Shown: positions 1,211-6,977 of the stretch, in pieces
How the letters are laid out: every line of letters starts with the position of its first letter
Numbering within the stretch: position 1 is the stretch's first letter
DNA from: Gammaproteobacteria bacterium
GTDB taxonomy: Bacteria > Pseudomonadota > Gammaproteobacteria > Ga0077536
DNA length: 43,380 nt
Direction of reading: 5' to 3'
Assembly: GCA_016209015.1 (NCBI GenBank)
Contig: JACQWY010000039.1
Location: 1-43,380 of the forward strand
The notes under the pieces: generated by a model
Databases searched by the model: none
What the model was told of the DNA's origin: nothing
The model's input: the letters and a program-made list of their open reading frames with translations, nothing else
Made by a program: the position numbers and the translations under genes

Positions 1211-2140
1211 TTAGACCGCAGACAGGGAAGTTGAGGGTTCCTCGAGCTGACCCGTAGAATTCTGTAAGCGAGCGGCGCGAGCGGCTTGAGCGCCAAGCAG
1301 ATAGCGCATGGCACGGACAGATTTCTGTTCAAGTGCCATTGCGCAATCAACCCAGGCCGAAACGGTTGTCGTTAAATCGTCCAGCTTCAGCCGTGTAAAT
1401 CGAGTGCGCAGCGAATCAATGAAATCCGGATTGCTTCCGGCGAGTATTTCATGAACTGCGGCGCGTCCTTTACCCTTTTCGACCAGCACATCGATGATTC
1501 CCATTTCAGCGAGCAATTCTGCCGGATAGCGGTTCGAGGAACCAATGAGTTTTCTCGCTAAGCTGGCGTCCGACCGGATAGCAAGCAATTGGAACGCTCC
1601 CATGCCTGGAAACATACCGAACAGACTCTCCGGGAATCCAAAGAATGCGCCTTTCTCAGCCACCAGCACGTGGCACGAGAGCGCTGCCTCGAATCCTCCG
1701 CCCTGCGCTTCACCGTGGACTAATGCAACCGACGTCGGTGAGTGCTGGCCACGACTAGCTGCATTTCTCCAGATCGCATGTACAGCCTCCCTTCCATAGC
1801 GAAGCAACGCTTGGTGGTCGCCGAGTTCAATACATCGAACAAAATGCGCTAAGTCGCCGCCGAGCGAAAAAACACCGGGCAGGTCTGATGTCAACACGCG
1901 ATACTTAATAAGCCCCAGAGGAAGCTGGGAAACGGCCCTACTAACGCTGTTGAATTCCTTTAGAAGCTGTTCAGTAACGCAATATGCAGCACTTGCTCGG
2001 AGCGTCACCCAAAGAGCGGACGTCGCGTCATCCAAACGCAAATCCAGAAGCTGCGTGCTTGGCCACGCTACTTGAGCCCGATTAGTATTCCGTACGGTAA
2101 CTATCGGAGCTCGAATTTGGATACTGGTGGAACGGATCAT
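1211..2140 (-). CDS. rpfF: RpfF-like DSF synthase (enoyl-CoA hydratase/crotonase fold)
   Basis: Crotonase-fold protein of 309 residues, close to the roughly 290 of Xanthomonas RpfF. RpfF enzymes take 3-hydroxyacyl-ACP, dehydrate it to a cis-2-enoyl chain and release it by thioesterase action as the diffusible signal factor (DSF). Diagnostic motifs are present: FSLGGDLAHF (91-100), HGEAQGGGFEAALS (142-155) and GFPESLFGMFPGMGAF (168-183). The two catalytic glutamates of RpfF (Glu141/Glu161 in Xanthomonas) correspond to Glu151 and Glu171 here, with the same 20-residue spacing. The ATG at 2140 is chosen because GGAGGG sits 7-8 bases upstream; the open frame continues to 2287 but lacks a site there. 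The gene is divergent from an ACP and a ketoacyl synthase and near an RpfC-like kinase, which fits a signal-synthesis role. Base composition is markedly AT-richer than that of the downstream genes. Confidence 0.9.
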   Translation of the reverse strand: MIRSTSIQIRAPIVTVRNTNRAQVAWPSTQLLDLRLDDATSALWVTLRASAAYCVTEQLLKEFNSVSRAVSQLPLGLIKYRVLTSDLPGVFSLGGDLAHFVRCIELGDHQALLRYGREAVHAIWRNAASRGQHSPTSVALVHGEAQGGGFEAALSCHVLVAEKGAFFGFPESLFGMFPGMGAFQLLAIRSDASLARKLIGSSNRYPAELLAEMGIIDVLVEKGKGRAAVHEILAGSNPDFIDSLRTRFTRLKLDDLTTTVSAWVDCAMALEQKSVRAMRYLLGAQAARAARLQNSTGQLEEPSTSLSAV

Positions 2141-2417
2141 GAAATTCCCTCCTGACCGAAGATCGCTGATGGGCATGGGGTGGAGCGACGCATCACATCT
2201 TTTTGTTGCTTCCAATCCCGAGTGACCGGTCCAATTGAAAGACTTTTGATGGACGGTACTAGGGTCAAAAACCCCGAAAATCACCAATTCGAGTTAGCCA
2301 AATGCCTGCCATAAACCTGTAAATTTAGGCCTGAAAAGCCGAGCGAGATTCGTTGCGGCGGTATGTAATGAATTGTGACTTGCGATGGAATTGGTGCGGA
2401 GTTGCGGCGCGGAACTT
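2141..2417. promoter_or_regulatory. Divergent promoter region between rpfF and the ACP gene
   Basis: This 277-base AT-rich gap separates the minus-strand rpfF from the plus-strand acp-KAS pair, so it should hold the promoters for both. An 8-base palindrome TAAATTTA lies near 2321-2328. I cannot assign -35/-10 boxes with confidence. Shared control of signal synthesis and the acyl-supply genes is inferred from the layout. Confidence 0.4.
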
Positions 2418-2669
2418 ATGAATAGGATTGAAATAGAAGATCTAGTAATAGAAGTTGTCTCGGACACCCTGAACGTCCCTCGAAGCCAAGTGTCGCCGAC
2501 AACGAGAATCCGGGAGGAATTGAAGGCTGACTCCATGGACATCGTCACACTAACAATTGCGTTGGATTCGCAATTTGGAATCGAATTTAACATGGATGAA
2601 ATTCCGGAGTCGGATGTATCGGTACAGTGGATTACCGAATTCCTTGAGAAGAAGCTCATTTGCAAATGA
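2418..2669 (+). CDS. Dedicated acyl carrier protein
   Basis: Acidic carrier protein of 83 residues. The phosphopantetheine attachment motif is ADSMDIV with Ser39 as the modified residue, followed by the typical helix-II sequence (TIALDSQFGIEFNMDEI) that partner enzymes recognise. The ATG at 2418 gives the usual ACP length; an in-frame ATG at 2385 would add 11 atypical residues, and neither has a strong ribosome-binding site. Its stop overlaps the start of the ketoacyl synthase (ATGA at 2666-2669), implying translational coupling. It is probably not the main fatty-acid AcpP, because it sits in an AT-rich signalling cassette and not beside fabD/fabG. It likely presents acyl chains to the adjacent KAS and possibly to RpfF. 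Confidence 0.9.
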   Translation: MNRIEIEDLVIEVVSDTLNVPRSQVSPTTRIREELKADSMDIVTLTIALDSQFGIEFNMDEIPESDVSVQWITEFLEKKLICK

Positions 2670-4027
2670 GCACGGTTCGTCCACGTCGTGTCGTTGTAAC
2701 CGGGATGGGAGTAGTTTCATCGATAGGAAACGATATTGAGAGCTTCTGGCACGCTTGCATGACGGGACAATCCCGGGTTGAGTCCACACCGGCTCATTGG
2801 AAACTTTTCTACGAAGCGACCAGCAAAGTCTGGTCGCCACTGACTCTTCCAGACTTCAATGCTTATGGCCTTCGCAGAGCGGATGTGCTGGTGCAAGACC
2901 CAGTGTCGCTGATTGCAATAGTAGCTGCAGAACAAGCATTGAACGCGAGCGGTGTTGATCGGGAAGAAACTGACGCGAAGGCCAGCTCATTCAAGGTTTC
3001 TTCAGTCGACCCCGATAGATTTGGGGTGTACGTCGGAACAGGGATGGGTGGAGCAAGAGCACCATTTGACAACTACGCCGTCCACATACTTCATGAGCTT
3101 GAACCGGAAATCCAAGGAATGCTAGAGCGGGATGCGGGGCAATTGCCACATGAGCTAGCGGCCTACTTGAAGTTGCATCCGAGGGTCAACCCGCTTGTTA
3201 TTTGCCAAACGATGCCGAATGCATCGAGTGCCTTGCTAGCAATTCGCTACGGGTTGCACGGGCCGAACGATACGTGCTGCTTTGCTTGTGCGTCGGGAAC
3301 GATTGCTATTGGCCGCGCATATGCGGCTGTCGCCGCCGGCGAGGCGGACATGGCGCTTGCCGGAGGAACGGAATTTTTGGGCGACTACGCCGGTTCGGTA
3401 TTCATGGGCTTTGACCGACTTCAGACGCTTGCGAAACCGCACAAGGAAATTGGGTCCGAAAATCGGCCATTTGACAAGGACCGCTCTGGGTTTCTGTTCT
3501 CAGAGGGCGGAGCTGGCATGGTCGTGGTTGAATCGCTGGACCATGCCATCCGAAGGGGTGCAAAACCGCTAGCAGAAATATGTAGCTTTGCGACATCAAT
3601 GGATGCGACGTCCCTCGTAGCGATATCAGCCGATGCGACGCGAATTGGTTTTATGCTGGACGCTCTTCTCAATAAAGCGCCGGCTAGTAGAGACGAAATT
3701 GACTACGTAAACGCCCATGGCACGGGGACCCGGGTGAATGACGAGGTCGAGGCAGGGATCATTGCTGCCAAGTTTGGCAGCAATGTGATTGTGAATAGCA
3801 CCAAATCCTTGCTCGGCCACACCATCGGAGCGAGCGGCGCCATCGAATTCATTGCCACAGCATTGAGCGTGAAGGAAGGCGCGGTACATCCGTCTTTGAA
3901 CGTCGACTCTCCGATCCCTGGCCCCTGCATTGCCCAAAAGCCCACACACCTGCCGATCCGCGCCGCGATATCAGAGAGCTTCGGATTCGGCGGGCATAAC
4001 GCGGCACTGTTACTACGACCCGTTTGA
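2666..4027 (+). CDS. FabF-like beta-ketoacyl-ACP synthase
   Basis: Thiolase-fold condensing enzyme of 453 residues. The Cys-His-His triad is intact: Cys208 in CCFACASG, His351 in NAHGTGT and His385 in LLGHTIGASG, with Lys380 and the C-terminal GFGGHN loop also present. KAS II enzymes extend acyl-ACP with malonyl-ACP. The protein is longer than the usual FabF (about 412) because of extra segments around residues 40-80 and 100-175, and it diverges from the housekeeping enzyme (MGGARAPFDNYAVH). The ATG at 2666 overlaps the ACP stop; a TTG at 2660 is the only slightly earlier alternative. With the ACP and RpfF it may build a particular DSF chain. A pigment/aryl-polyene or other specialised fatty-acid role cannot be excluded. 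Confidence 0.9.
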   Translation: MSTVRPRRVVVTGMGVVSSIGNDIESFWHACMTGQSRVESTPAHWKLFYEATSKVWSPLTLPDFNAYGLRRADVLVQDPVSLIAIVAAEQALNASGVDREETDAKASSFKVSSVDPDRFGVYVGTGMGGARAPFDNYAVHILHELEPEIQGMLERDAGQLPHELAAYLKLHPRVNPLVICQTMPNASSALLAIRYGLHGPNDTCCFACASGTIAIGRAYAAVAAGEADMALAGGTEFLGDYAGSVFMGFDRLQTLAKPHKEIGSENRPFDKDRSGFLFSEGGAGMVVVESLDHAIRRGAKPLAEICSFATSMDATSLVAISADATRIGFMLDALLNKAPASRDEIDYVNAHGTGTRVNDEVEAGIIAAKFGSNVIVNSTKSLLGHTIGASGAIEFIATALSVKEGAVHPSLNVDSPIPGPCIAQKPTHLPIRAAISESFGFGGHNAALLLRPV

Positions 4028-4114
4028 CAGATATAGCACCATCACGTATTGCGTAACATCATGAAAGGCCGAGTGGATAAGGAGATCCGGTAGTAGATTG
4101 GCCTGGCCGTCCCG

Positions 4115-4285
4115 ATGAGAAGCCAAGTCGGAACTACATCCGCCGTGTGCGTTGAAGGCGCCGAATTTGCGGTTGCTGCCGCGCGTGATTTCAGCAGTTT
4201 GCTCCGGCATCTAGAGAATTTGGGCTACTTTTGTTTGTACTGCCAATCGAATATGAAGCGCTCAAATTGTAGTGTATCGATATGA
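4115..4285 (+). CDS. Doubtful 56-codon open frame between KAS and rpfC
   Basis: The 355 bases between the KAS stop and the first ATG of rpfC hold one short open frame beginning ATG at 4115 and ending TGA at 4283-4285. Its product (MRSQVGTTSAV..., containing ARDFSSLLRHLENLGYFCL) matches no family I recognise, and no clear ribosome-binding site precedes it. It may be a small gene, the remnant of a larger one, or simply the rpfC leader. Nothing else was seen in the gap. Confidence 0.15.
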   Translation: MRSQVGTTSAVCVEGAEFAVAAARDFSSLLRHLENLGYFCLYCQSNMKRSNCSVSI

Positions 4286-4382
4286 TTGGTGTGCCGTCTC
4301 ACATAGTCATGCAGTCCGCGGTCAAGTGTGCGGCCCGATCTCCAGCAGTCAGATCGCTTTGCGCGACGTTCTCTTAGCCATC

Positions 4383-6977
4383 ATGGCGCTTCTAAATATC
4401 AAATTTGCGCTCCCGAAATCCGATGGGTTGAGCGAAGACGGGCTTGCAGACGCAAGGGCTACCGTCTCGACAGCGACAAATTCGAATGTGCCCCCGTCTG
4501 CCGAAAAGCACGAAGAGCTAGCGCAGGCGAAAGTGCGGTGCGTTCTCAATTTTGCTTTGATGTTGCTGGCATTGCTTTCGTATCAGCACAACCCTGAACT
4601 GGGCTTGCCGCGGGTATGGCTGACATTTGCATTTACCATCACGTCCGCCGTGTTCCTATACGTTTGGGCGAGACTGATTTCCAAGCCGGACACGTCGCGC
4701 GCGTCCATTGCAACTCAGCGCGTGTGCTGCATCGTATTAGATAACATCGCCATCACGTGGATACTGCACTTCGGAGGTGAGGCGCTTGCAGGAATAGTCG
4801 GCATATATCTCTGGATCACACTTGGGTACGGAATGCGCTATGGCCTGCGGTACCTGTTCGGAAATTTGGCCGTCTCCGTGGTCGGGTTTTCTATCGGCGC
4901 GTACTTCACGCCGTATTGGCGTGACCAGCCTTCGCTTTCCCTCGGTTTGGCACTTACACTGGTTATTGTACCGGCATATGCCGCGTTCTTGATAAAGCGG
5001 CTGCACCAGGCAGTTCGTGGCGCTAGGGCTGCATACGACGCTAAGAGCTCCTTCATCGCCAAAATGAGTCATGAGCTGAGGACTCCCCTTCACGGAATCA
5101 TTTCAACGACTGACTTGCTTGGTCAGACGAAGGTGTCTACCGAGCAACATGAAATGATTCGAATCATTTCCGTATCCTCCAACACGCTTCTTGATCTCAT
5201 TAACCGAATCCTTGACATCAGCAAGTTCGAGGCAGGAACGTTCATTCTGCAGAAGGAAAGAATGGACCTGCATCTTGTGCTCTGCGAGACGGTGAATATC
5301 CTCTGGCCCGAAGCCATTAGAAAGGGGCTGGACTTGCACTTTTTTACGGATATTCAAATCCCGAACTGGATATTCGGATCACCGAGACAGCTGCAAGAGG
5401 TGCTCGTAAATCTCGGCGGCAACGCGATTAAGTTCACAGACACCGGCCGCGTTTCGATCAAAGTAGTGCCGGTAAGGAAGACGCCGAATGTGCAGACGAT
5501 TCGATTTGAAATAAGCGATAACGGGCCAGGCATTTCGAAGGAAGCTATTGAGCGGATTTTTGATCCGTTTGTTCAGGGTGATAATTCAACGACGAGAAAG
5601 CATGGGGGAACTGGCTTGGGAACCGCTATCTCTCGCGAACTAACCCGATTGATGGGCGGGGATATTCAGGTCGAATCCATTCTTGGGGTGGGGAGTGTAT
5701 TCTCGGTTGAACTTCCTTTTGAAATTGCTCCAGTCCCCGAGAATGTGCACCCGATTTATAGAGGCTCAGTCGTTGCGCTTGGATACCATAGCAGTTATGC
5801 GGAATTGGGCGAGGCGTTCGGAAAATTCGGAGCGGAAGTGGTGCTGATAGACCAACTGGACGCTCTAGATACTGCTTGTTTTCGAGCTGGTAACTTAGCT
5901 GCTGTAATAATCGATGCGGATCAGTTCGGTGGAAGAATAAGGAACATCAAGCGCTCAATTGCCAAGCAGCTAGGTGGAACGCTCGTGGCCGTTATTGCCA
6001 GCGGTTGCGATAAGGCGAAGGAGGAAGCGATTGCGGCAGGATGCGCCACCTTTATAGAGAGCATTTCCAATTCGCAGGAAGTCGAGCGCGCGCTGAATAT
6101 TGCCGCAATGCTTCGAAAGGAGTATTTGCCAGAGCGTGATGGGCAACCGTCGACATCGCCTTTGAGGATATTGGTGGCCGAGGATAATCCAACGAATCAA
6201 ACAATAGCTAGGCTAACGCTTGAGGGAGCAGGGCACGATTGTCTAATCGTCGAAAATGGCCAAGCCGCTCTAGATGCACTTCAGGGCGATATTTTCGACT
6301 TGGCAATAGTGGATATGCATATGCCGATTTTCGATGGCGTCGAAGTGGCAAGAATCTACAATTTTTCGATCATTGATGCGAATCTCAGAATACCGATCAT
6401 TATGATGACGGCCGATAACCGGGCAGAAGTTATTGCCGATGCCGAACTGGCGGGGGTATGCCAATTTCTCGTCAAGCCATTGCGCCCTGCCGTGTTGTTG
6501 AACGCAATTGAGCGGGTAATGCGCGAGCGGTCGAAGGCACCGGCGATTCTCAGTTTTGTCGCACAGCCCGTGACGCCGTGGCAAGCGTCGACTGTAGAAG
6601 ACGAAGCTCTTAGCGGTGAAGGACAGCAAAGCGCTTTGATTGATCCGACGATCGTCGATGAACTGCTCGGATATATGAGCATTGATGAAAGAGGGCCATT
6701 TTTTGGCGAGTTCCTGGCCGACGCGTCCGGCTATATTGCTACGCTAGACGGGTCTATAAGCGAGGAGCAACTGGATGCGGTTCGCGGAAGTATGCACTCG
6801 CTCAGTGGAGCATCACGAACGATTGGCGCAATCGTGCTCGCGAAACTCGCCCGCCGGATTGAGTACATGAACGGTTCCGAAATTCGCTCTACAGGGCAAG
6901 CACTCCATGATGAGTTGCGTGAAACTTTAAACCGCACTTTTTCCGAAATGCGAGGGTACGCGGATATTGGGATTTAA
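4383..6977 (+). CDS. rpfC: RpfC-like hybrid sensor histidine kinase (5TM-HK-pseudoREC-REC-HPt)
   Basis: Hybrid kinase of 864 residues from the first ATG; the frame is open from a GTG at 4272, and neither start has a good ribosome-binding site. Five hydrophobic segments (about 52-205) form an input domain with the YLWITLGYGMRYG...PYW segment closely resembling Xanthomonas RpfC, the DSF receptor. A HisKA domain follows with phosphoacceptor His230 (MSHELRTPLHG), then an ATPase domain with N, G1 (DNGPGIS) and G2 (GGTGLGT) boxes. Residues about 460-580 look like a degenerate receiver. A true receiver follows with Asp644 (AIVDMHMP) and Lys698 (LVKPL), then a C-terminal HPt domain with His805 (MHSLSGASR). 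RpfC of Xanthomonas is about 726 residues, so the extra length is notable. It presumably senses the product of the adjacent rpfF. No rpfG partner lies in the window. Confidence 0.92.
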   Translation: MALLNIKFALPKSDGLSEDGLADARATVSTATNSNVPPSAEKHEELAQAKVRCVLNFALMLLALLSYQHNPELGLPRVWLTFAFTITSAVFLYVWARLISKPDTSRASIATQRVCCIVLDNIAITWILHFGGEALAGIVGIYLWITLGYGMRYGLRYLFGNLAVSVVGFSIGAYFTPYWRDQPSLSLGLALTLVIVPAYAAFLIKRLHQAVRGARAAYDAKSSFIAKMSHELRTPLHGIISTTDLLGQTKVSTEQHEMIRIISVSSNTLLDLINRILDISKFEAGTFILQKERMDLHLVLCETVNILWPEAIRKGLDLHFFTDIQIPNWIFGSPRQLQEVLVNLGGNAIKFTDTGRVSIKVVPVRKTPNVQTIRFEISDNGPGISKEAIERIFDPFVQGDNSTTRKHGGTGLGTAISRELTRLMGGDIQVESILGVGSVFSVELPFEIAPVPENVHPIYRGSVVALGYHSSYAELGEAFGKFGAEVVLIDQLDALDTACFRAGNLAAVIIDADQFGGRIRNIKRSIAKQLGGTLVAVIASGCDKAKEEAIAAGCATFIESISNSQEVERALNIAAMLRKEYLPERDGQPSTSPLRILVAEDNPTNQTIARLTLEGAGHDCLIVENGQAALDALQGDIFDLAIVDMHMPIFDGVEVARIYNFSIIDANLRIPIIMMTADNRAEVIADAELAGVCQFLVKPLRPAVLLNAIERVMRERSKAPAILSFVAQPVTPWQASTVEDEALSGEGQQSALIDPTIVDELLGYMSIDERGPFFGEFLADASGYIATLDGSISEEQLDAVRGSMHSLSGASRTIGAIVLAKLARRIEYMNGSEIRSTGQALHDELRETLNRTFSEMRGYADIGI

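Follow-up and report, generated by a model that had tools for sequence, protein, structure and literature searches.

As far as the sources available to us go, signals of the diffusible signal factor (DSF) family originate in the general fatty-acid pathway, and the determinant of their structure has been sought in the supply of substrate. The excerpted account in PMC4504480 describes Burkholderia RpfF as acting on 3-hydroxyacyl-acyl carrier protein (ACP), as a dehydratase and then as a thioesterase; it reports that signal mixtures in the Burkholderia cepacia complex track substrate supply, not RpfF specificity, and that RpfC is the sensor of DSF, its receiver domain being the part that binds RpfF. 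DSF production in Xanthomonas is aided by an additional reductase, FabG2, deletion of which lowers DSF (PMC5941067, in excerpt). Here we describe a locus in which genes related to rpfF and rpfC are accompanied by genes for an ACP and a beta-ketoacyl-ACP synthase (KAS). It occupies positions 1211-6977 of the stretch analyzed, 43,380 nucleotides from a gammaproteobacterium (contig JACQWY010000039.1 of assembly GCA_016209015.1; hereafter the window), which makes up the entire contig C7 of a genome of 5.7 Mb in 65 contigs. The arrangement suggests that some bacteria draw on a private supply, and not on the general fatty-acid pool, to make a DSF-type signal.

Known rpf loci, an earlier note on this DNA had stated, hold rpfF together with rpfC, rpfG, and rpfB and draw acyl-ACP from housekeeping synthesis, which agrees with what PMC4504480 says in the part consulted. 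The window cassette resembles the Xanthomonas rpf locus in its RpfF-like synthase with both catalytic glutamates and in a kinase with the RpfC domain order, the receiver of which is closest to RpfC among the receiver-only PDB chains listed (3m6m_D, 93.6 bits; next 86.3). It differs in adding an ACP and a KAS, in being without rpfG and rpfB, and in orientation: rpfF and the kinase gene diverge in the window, whereas Xanthomonas rpfF is convergent with rpfGHC (PMC4504480, in excerpt). Rhizobial NodF and NodE, as the available portions of PMC4618531 and PMC9048898 present them, are likewise a special ACP and a FabF-like KAS set aside for the acyl chain that a signal molecule carries, and on a Sinorhizobium alkalisoli plasmid we find an acp-KAS pair near nodA, nodB, and nodC. 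The window KAS nevertheless falls outside the NodE group, its partner is a DSF synthase, and the signal would be a free fatty acid. With the housekeeping pair AcpP-FabF the cassette shares folds, catalytic residues, and the acp-fabF gene order, but its KAS belongs to a separate clade carrying an insertion, and its ACP and KAS score below the AcpP and FabF equivalog cut-offs. The closest published idea we found concerns the Ralstonia fabF3-RSp0360-fabG2-fabF2-fabB cluster, for which the authors suggested an unidentified fatty-acid-related signal as the product (PMC4618531, in excerpt). FabG2 of Xanthomonas is a reductase, and neither it nor the Ralstonia cluster is described, in the parts of those sources at hand, with an ACP and a KAS linked to rpfF and rpfC. 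A search of the open-access literature, with subscription papers and preprints outside it, turned up no account of acp and KAS genes linked to rpfF.

The four genes lie where the earlier note had placed them, with the residues it listed intact: the rpfF-like gene on the reverse strand, divergent from acp and the KAS gene on the forward strand, and the hybrid kinase gene following the KAS gene on that strand. The RpfF-like DSF synthase (1211..2140, minus strand; 309 amino acids, crotonase fold) probably begins at an ATG at 2140 behind the motif AGGAGGG, although the longest open reading frame (ORF) extends to 2287. It matches PRK08788 at 251.8 bits against a cut-off of 177, and by the RpfF profile (A2) the closest PDB structures are RpfF entries (3m6m, 247 bits; 7zq7, 241; 5fus, 189; 6dgn, 187), with other hydratases at 68 bits or less. 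In the alignment to Xanthomonas RpfF 3m6m, both glutamates (in GGGFEAAL and FPESLFG) match the pair of that protein; they are E156 and E176 in the aligned window fragment and are invariant in 11/11 aligned sequences. The catalytic glutamates of RpfF are named E141 and E161 in PMC9040811, as excerpted. A second class of RpfF occurs in the same family (L046, L047, L048, L049, and L260), where the stretches read hold neither a KAS nor an RpfC-like kinase gene.

The dedicated ACP (2418..2669, plus strand; 83 amino acids) carries its phosphopantetheine serine in the motif ADSMD, a residue invariant in 11/11 aligned sequences. It matches PF00550 at 34.6 bits (cut-off 20.8) and misses the AcpP equivalog cut-off (42.9 against 70.45). 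The start of the KAS gene overlaps the ACP stop by 4 bp, as ATGA. The KAS itself (2666..4027, plus strand; ATG at 2666; 453 amino acids) belongs to an rpf-associated, FabF-like clade and scores 299 against the FabF equivalog cut-off of 493.75. It has the Cys-His-His triad, the lysine, and the fold of KAS I/II enzymes, C208, K380, H351, and H385 being invariant in 14/14 clade members aligned. Its AlphaFold model has a mean per-residue confidence (pLDDT) of 85.8, and the best Foldseek matches are FabF structures, with template-modeling scores of 0.82/0.90. An insertion of about 26 residues (approximately 3092..3169, plus strand, as placed by alignment; model confidence is low to moderate here) sits ahead of the segment that aligns with E. 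coli FabF residues near 130. The alignment shows no counterpart of it in NodE, in the FabF of this genome, in FabF and FabB of E. coli, or in the type-2 KAS of L205, a locus described below. At E. coli FabF position 269 (Met counted), serine replaces histidine in 14/14 clade KASs, while all 20 FabF-type rows from the family have histidine. We take this region of FabF, around the insertion and position 269, to be close to the acyl pocket and the dimer interface. A plasmid search for close relatives of the KAS returned 1223 records, all below 60% identity, the best among the matches listed being at about 34%.

The RpfC-like hybrid histidine kinase (4383..6977, plus strand) is likely 864 amino acids long; ATG 4383 is the likelier start, though the ORF can begin at 4272. 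Kinase ORFs of relatives run to 832-876 amino acids and are 35-47% identical to it. A hydrophobic N-terminal membrane domain is followed by HisKA, HATPase, REC, and Hpt domains (Pfam), which is the architecture of RpfC, and a simple hydropathy plot of the N-terminus gives about five to six segments against the five transmembrane helices of RpfC.

The ACP and KAS are not the housekeeping pair, since the genome has its own acpP and fabF and the KAS forms a separate clade. The canonical acpP (ADSLDTVELVMALEEEF) lies beside fabF on contig C11 (locus L003), and all 12 family genomes with a dedicated KAS have another KAS match at E 1e-60, the dedicated enzymes scoring 570-744 bits and the others 246 at most. 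In a tree of 44 KAS rows, the 18 full-length dedicated KASs make one clade with support of 100/100, and E. coli FabF groups with the 7 FabFs retained from the family (99/94). We therefore rejected a housekeeping identity, and the separation from FabF that the earlier note had proposed looking for is present. This tree derives from a 54-row version by removing L004, 12 family FabFs, and one mycobacterial row and adding 4 new cassette KASs. At 44 rows, a long mycobacterial row attaches to the long stem of the dedicated group, as the program flagged; the group is independent of that row. The KAS of G035, a fragment, is in no tree. NodE stands apart from the window KAS and joins a KAS of Xanthomonas sacchari and the type-2 KASs from L205 and L207; the L205/L207-NodE group has support of 100/100. 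A single origin of the window-type and the NodE-related rpf-associated KASs was rejected (approximately unbiased [AU] test, p 0.0001). The window's own genome also holds a further, very divergent KAS on a very long branch (G000:C59:54334-55062, the L004 mentioned above).

The linkage of these genes is conserved. We found the KAS clade in 19 genomes: 12 of the 36 in the family, another 3 when 369 genomes of the class were searched, and another 4 from the 57 in the order of G117. The family, class, order, and phylum samples overlap, and with the overlap included the totals are 6/369 for the class sample and 5/57 for that order. In the phylum sample (398 genomes, E 1e-100), only the window's own genome matched the KAS. 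Only the best few candidates per genome were scored in the class and phylum samples, and the search profiles were built from cassette members, so the counts lean towards cassettes. An ACP gene adjoins the clade KAS in 18 of the 19 genomes, the exception being G035, where the contig begins inside the KAS gene. RpfF is encoded on the same contig in 16, and the remaining three (G035, G165, and G813) end at contig breaks: in G165 the rpfF start is 274 bases from one contig end and the acp start 136 bases from the end of another, as would be expected of a split divergent pair, and the G813 contig starts 253 bases before acp. Where both are present, rpfF diverges from acp-KAS in 12 of 16 loci; in G024 the kinase gene lies between them. 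An RpfC-like kinase gene accompanies the KAS in 16/19 and is found on the rpfF contig of G165 as well; none was seen in the 19 kb read in G006 or the 8.4 kb read in G813. RpfF was found at E 1e-35 in 69 of the 369 class-sample genomes, and these 69 include every one of the 6 with the KAS (hypergeometric probability 3.6e-5, which ignores kinship, 3 of the 6 coming from one family). Because the same set recurs in other genera and families even though the proteins have diverged to 23-51% identity with those of the window (ACP lowest, KAS highest), its presence is more than chance. This conserved tie between acp-KAS and the rpf locus led us to reject an unrelated pathway placed there by chance; the neighborhood is an rpf locus, and the search for rpfF flanked by acp and this KAS subtype that the earlier note had called for thus came out in its favor.

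For comparison we read 60 RpfF loci without this KAS clade. Of the 63 class-sample genomes with RpfF and without the KAS, 58 supplied these loci (G135 two of them), and one more is a second RpfF locus from G005. L048, from G007, was read on its own, and partial hits in G120, G188, G243, and G268 were left out. The stretches run about 6 kb to each side where the contig allows, several being shorter. An RpfC-like kinase of at least 300 bits is encoded in 46 of the 60. Two of them (L205 and L207) carry an ACP and a KAS of the other, NodE-related type, the acp-KAS pair starting divergently next to rpfC and being followed by a convergent CMAS-type methyltransferase gene. In one more control locus, L234, rpfF has an ACP gene next to it and no KAS; L210 gave a weak ACP-like match (21 bits). 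Since the L205 and L207 KASs group with NodE, and one group with the window clade was rejected, two KAS lineages now stand beside rpf genes, and recruitment of acp-KAS looks repeated. These NodE-related sets, which place KAS, ACP, and CMAS-like methyltransferase genes against rpfF-rpfC (L205:9574-12140 and L207:9614-12143), come from two further families. A first RpfF tree had 78 rows. In two careful runs, of 36 and 33 rows (without the long-branch cassette RpfFs of L041 and L045 and many controls, and at 33 rows also without L040), the best trees put the RpfFs beside window-type KASs on three branches. They form one group in 0/200 bootstrap trees in both careful runs, and a single origin of the cassette RpfF is weakly disfavored (AU p 0.04 with 36 rows, 0.094 with 33).

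Given the substrate of RpfF, the dependence of signal mixtures on supply, and the effect of FabG2, a private ACP and KAS beside rpfF would most simply supply and define the acyl chain. We infer the flow of substrate, the product, and its sensing as follows, and think it probable that the cassette is a DSF-type signaling module with its own substrate supply, in which a NodFE-like pair hands a private 3-hydroxyacyl-ACP to RpfF and a distinct DSF-family signal is read by the kinase. The private ACP would be loaded with an acyl chain, which the dedicated KAS would extend by malonyl condensation to 3-ketoacyl-ACP, and a reductase encoded elsewhere (housekeeping FabG or the like) would convert this to 3-hydroxyacyl-ACP. 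RpfF would then dehydrate it to the cis-2-enoyl form and detach this from the ACP, so that a cis-2-enoic acid is set free. That acid would be sensed by the RpfC-like kinase, which may hold RpfF through its receiver domain, as in Xanthomonas. The private pair would set which chain RpfF receives, much as NodF-NodE provide Nod factors with a special chain, and could shield the bulk acyl-ACP pool from the RpfF thioesterase. An ACP and a condensing enzyme locked to rpfF would make the question of supply directly testable and would point to undiscovered members of the DSF family; the cassette would parallel NodFE in symbiosis, and rpfF beside acp-KAS could serve as a genomic marker for finding such signals.

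Neighboring genes in some relatives fit a variable decoration of the signal, or the unusual chain or modification that the earlier note had inferred. A fatty-acid desaturase gene lies directly downstream of rpfF on the same strand in two genera (L041, 345-1229, with a 4-bp overlap; L045, 11019-11912, after a 26-base gap). RpfF of G016 is fused to a C-terminal TauD/TfdA-type 2-oxoglutarate oxygenase domain (L037:7870-9828), so that a hydroxylated DSF is a possible product there. In G165 (L242) the gene after rpfF bears a weak resemblance to CMAS (58 bits). Three genomes from a single genus, G117, G823, and G824, have a radical-SAM gene directly upstream of acp (L169:10528-12123, L289:10825-12351, and L290:10686-12212). 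When four enzyme queries were run against the 58 controls other than L205 and L207, a match appeared only in L246, a comparison biased by queries that came from cassette and type-2 loci. We would venture, tentatively, a wider reading: that such loci are small biosynthetic clusters for new DSF-family signals, in which the private ACP and KAS assemble a chain of non-standard type, RpfF adds the cis-2 bond and releases the product, and some species decorate it by desaturase, oxygenase, methyltransferase, or radical-SAM enzyme, giving each lineage a quorum dialect chemically its own, with ACP and KAS recruited to rpf loci at least twice.

The same neighbors could be read otherwise. Lipid-modifying or radical-SAM genes adjoin some cassettes, and in L041 an MMPL-type transporter gene follows the KAS; these could belong to a pathway in which acp-KAS makes a different lipid or small metabolite, tied to rpfF and the kinase through control by the signal or joint release with it. 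We consider this unlikely, for in a comparison of 15 cassette loci, the gene families that rank next in sharing, behind KAS, kinase, RpfF, and ACP, are found in no more than 4 loci, which belong to a single genus (a PALP enzyme being one such family), and the desaturase and oxygenase are joined to rpfF (adjacent in L041 and L045, fused in L037), not to acp-KAS. The FabF active-site residues and fold that the KAS keeps would also suit a general-purpose spare elongation set that raises substrate supply and provides neither a special chain nor a private channel. The long separate stem of the clade, the insertion of some 26 residues, the exchange at position 269 in every member aligned, and the position of the KAS beside rpfF wherever the contig reaches that far all speak against it, and we hold it to be decidedly unlikely. 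It would be more surprising still if the cassette RpfF acted chiefly as a regulatory or thioesterase partner and something other than a cis-2-enoic acid were the real product. Such a role gains something from the missed RpfF equivalog cut-off and from Xylella, where RpfF is said in the excerpt of PMC4504480 to have a role independent of the catalytic glutamates, but both glutamates are invariant in the cassette proteins, and we regard the idea as very improbable.

Several observations weigh against a DSF-type module with a private supply, which we nonetheless prefer. The window protein reaches 166 bits where the NCBIfam RpfF equivalog asks for 550; the cut-off is a database threshold and not a biochemical criterion, and because it was missed we use the name RpfF-like. 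No reductase or other fatty-acid-synthesis gene is present in the cassette; for its reductase, malonyl transferase, and ACP-activating enzyme, the module must rely on the general machinery. Among the controls, 58/60 RpfF loci are without a KAS in the stretch read, and 44 of these 58 have an RpfC-like kinase; the rpf system therefore does not need a KAS. G035, in which the contig begins inside the KAS gene, has a KAS and a best RpfF-query match of only 3.1e-10, and no RpfF partner was found for it. The methyltransferase of tailoring type in L246 is near a plain RpfF. Finally, the three-branch result for RpfF is not firm, the starred branches of the 33-row tree forcing only one change. The dedicated carrier and condensing enzyme proposed in the earlier note stand, the pair being neither the genome's housekeeping copy nor part of an unrelated pathway, the two outcomes named beforehand as grounds for dropping it. 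Its term self-contained was too strong: ketoreduction, malonyl loading, and ACP activation must be supplied from elsewhere, the window cassette has neither rpfG nor rpfB, and a KAS is missing from most of the RpfF loci read.

The cassette is flanked by a SlyX-family gene and a small unnamed gene on one side and by an HDOD gene on the other. The intergenic region between the divergent rpfF and acp genes (2141..2417, from the gene positions) presumably holds the promoters of both. Cassette guanine-plus-cytosine (GC) content is 0.525 against 0.65 in the remainder of the first 20 kb; in 1-kb windows it is about 0.50-0.56, and mostly 0.62-0.72 downstream. The difference suggests that the cassette was acquired later, although the gap is small in several relatives. 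The cassette edges were checked for flanking repeats, and none found was long or convincing. The HDOD gene was considered as part of the module and rejected: of 12 further loci in the family that have an HDOD homologue, 9 show PhaC next to it within the short flanks, without the cassette there, and the window HDOD gene likewise has PhaC beside it. In G028, a genome without the KAS, pieces of an RpfC-like kinase in two ORFs at a contig start (L293:58-1496) lie upstream of the homologue of this HDOD gene and are perhaps a cassette remnant.

The partners of RpfF and RpfC in Xanthomonas-type clusters are placed differently here. RpfB reportedly counteracts the thioesterase activity of RpfF; rpfB is not adjacent to rpfF in the window, where the contig starts at base 1 and the cassette neighbors are the genes just named. 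Nor is rpfG adjacent to the kinase gene, and the HD-GYP motif is absent from the ORFs of the first 20 kb of the window and from those of 10 family loci. Five genomes outside the family (G117, G372, G823, G824, and G165) do have an RpfG-like gene near the cassette. Elsewhere in the window's genome there are REC-HD-GYP homologues, at best 41% identical, that could serve as RpfG; one REC-HD-GYP protein, encoded next to another hybrid kinase (L294; G000:C48:81877-82935), is a candidate RpfG partner.

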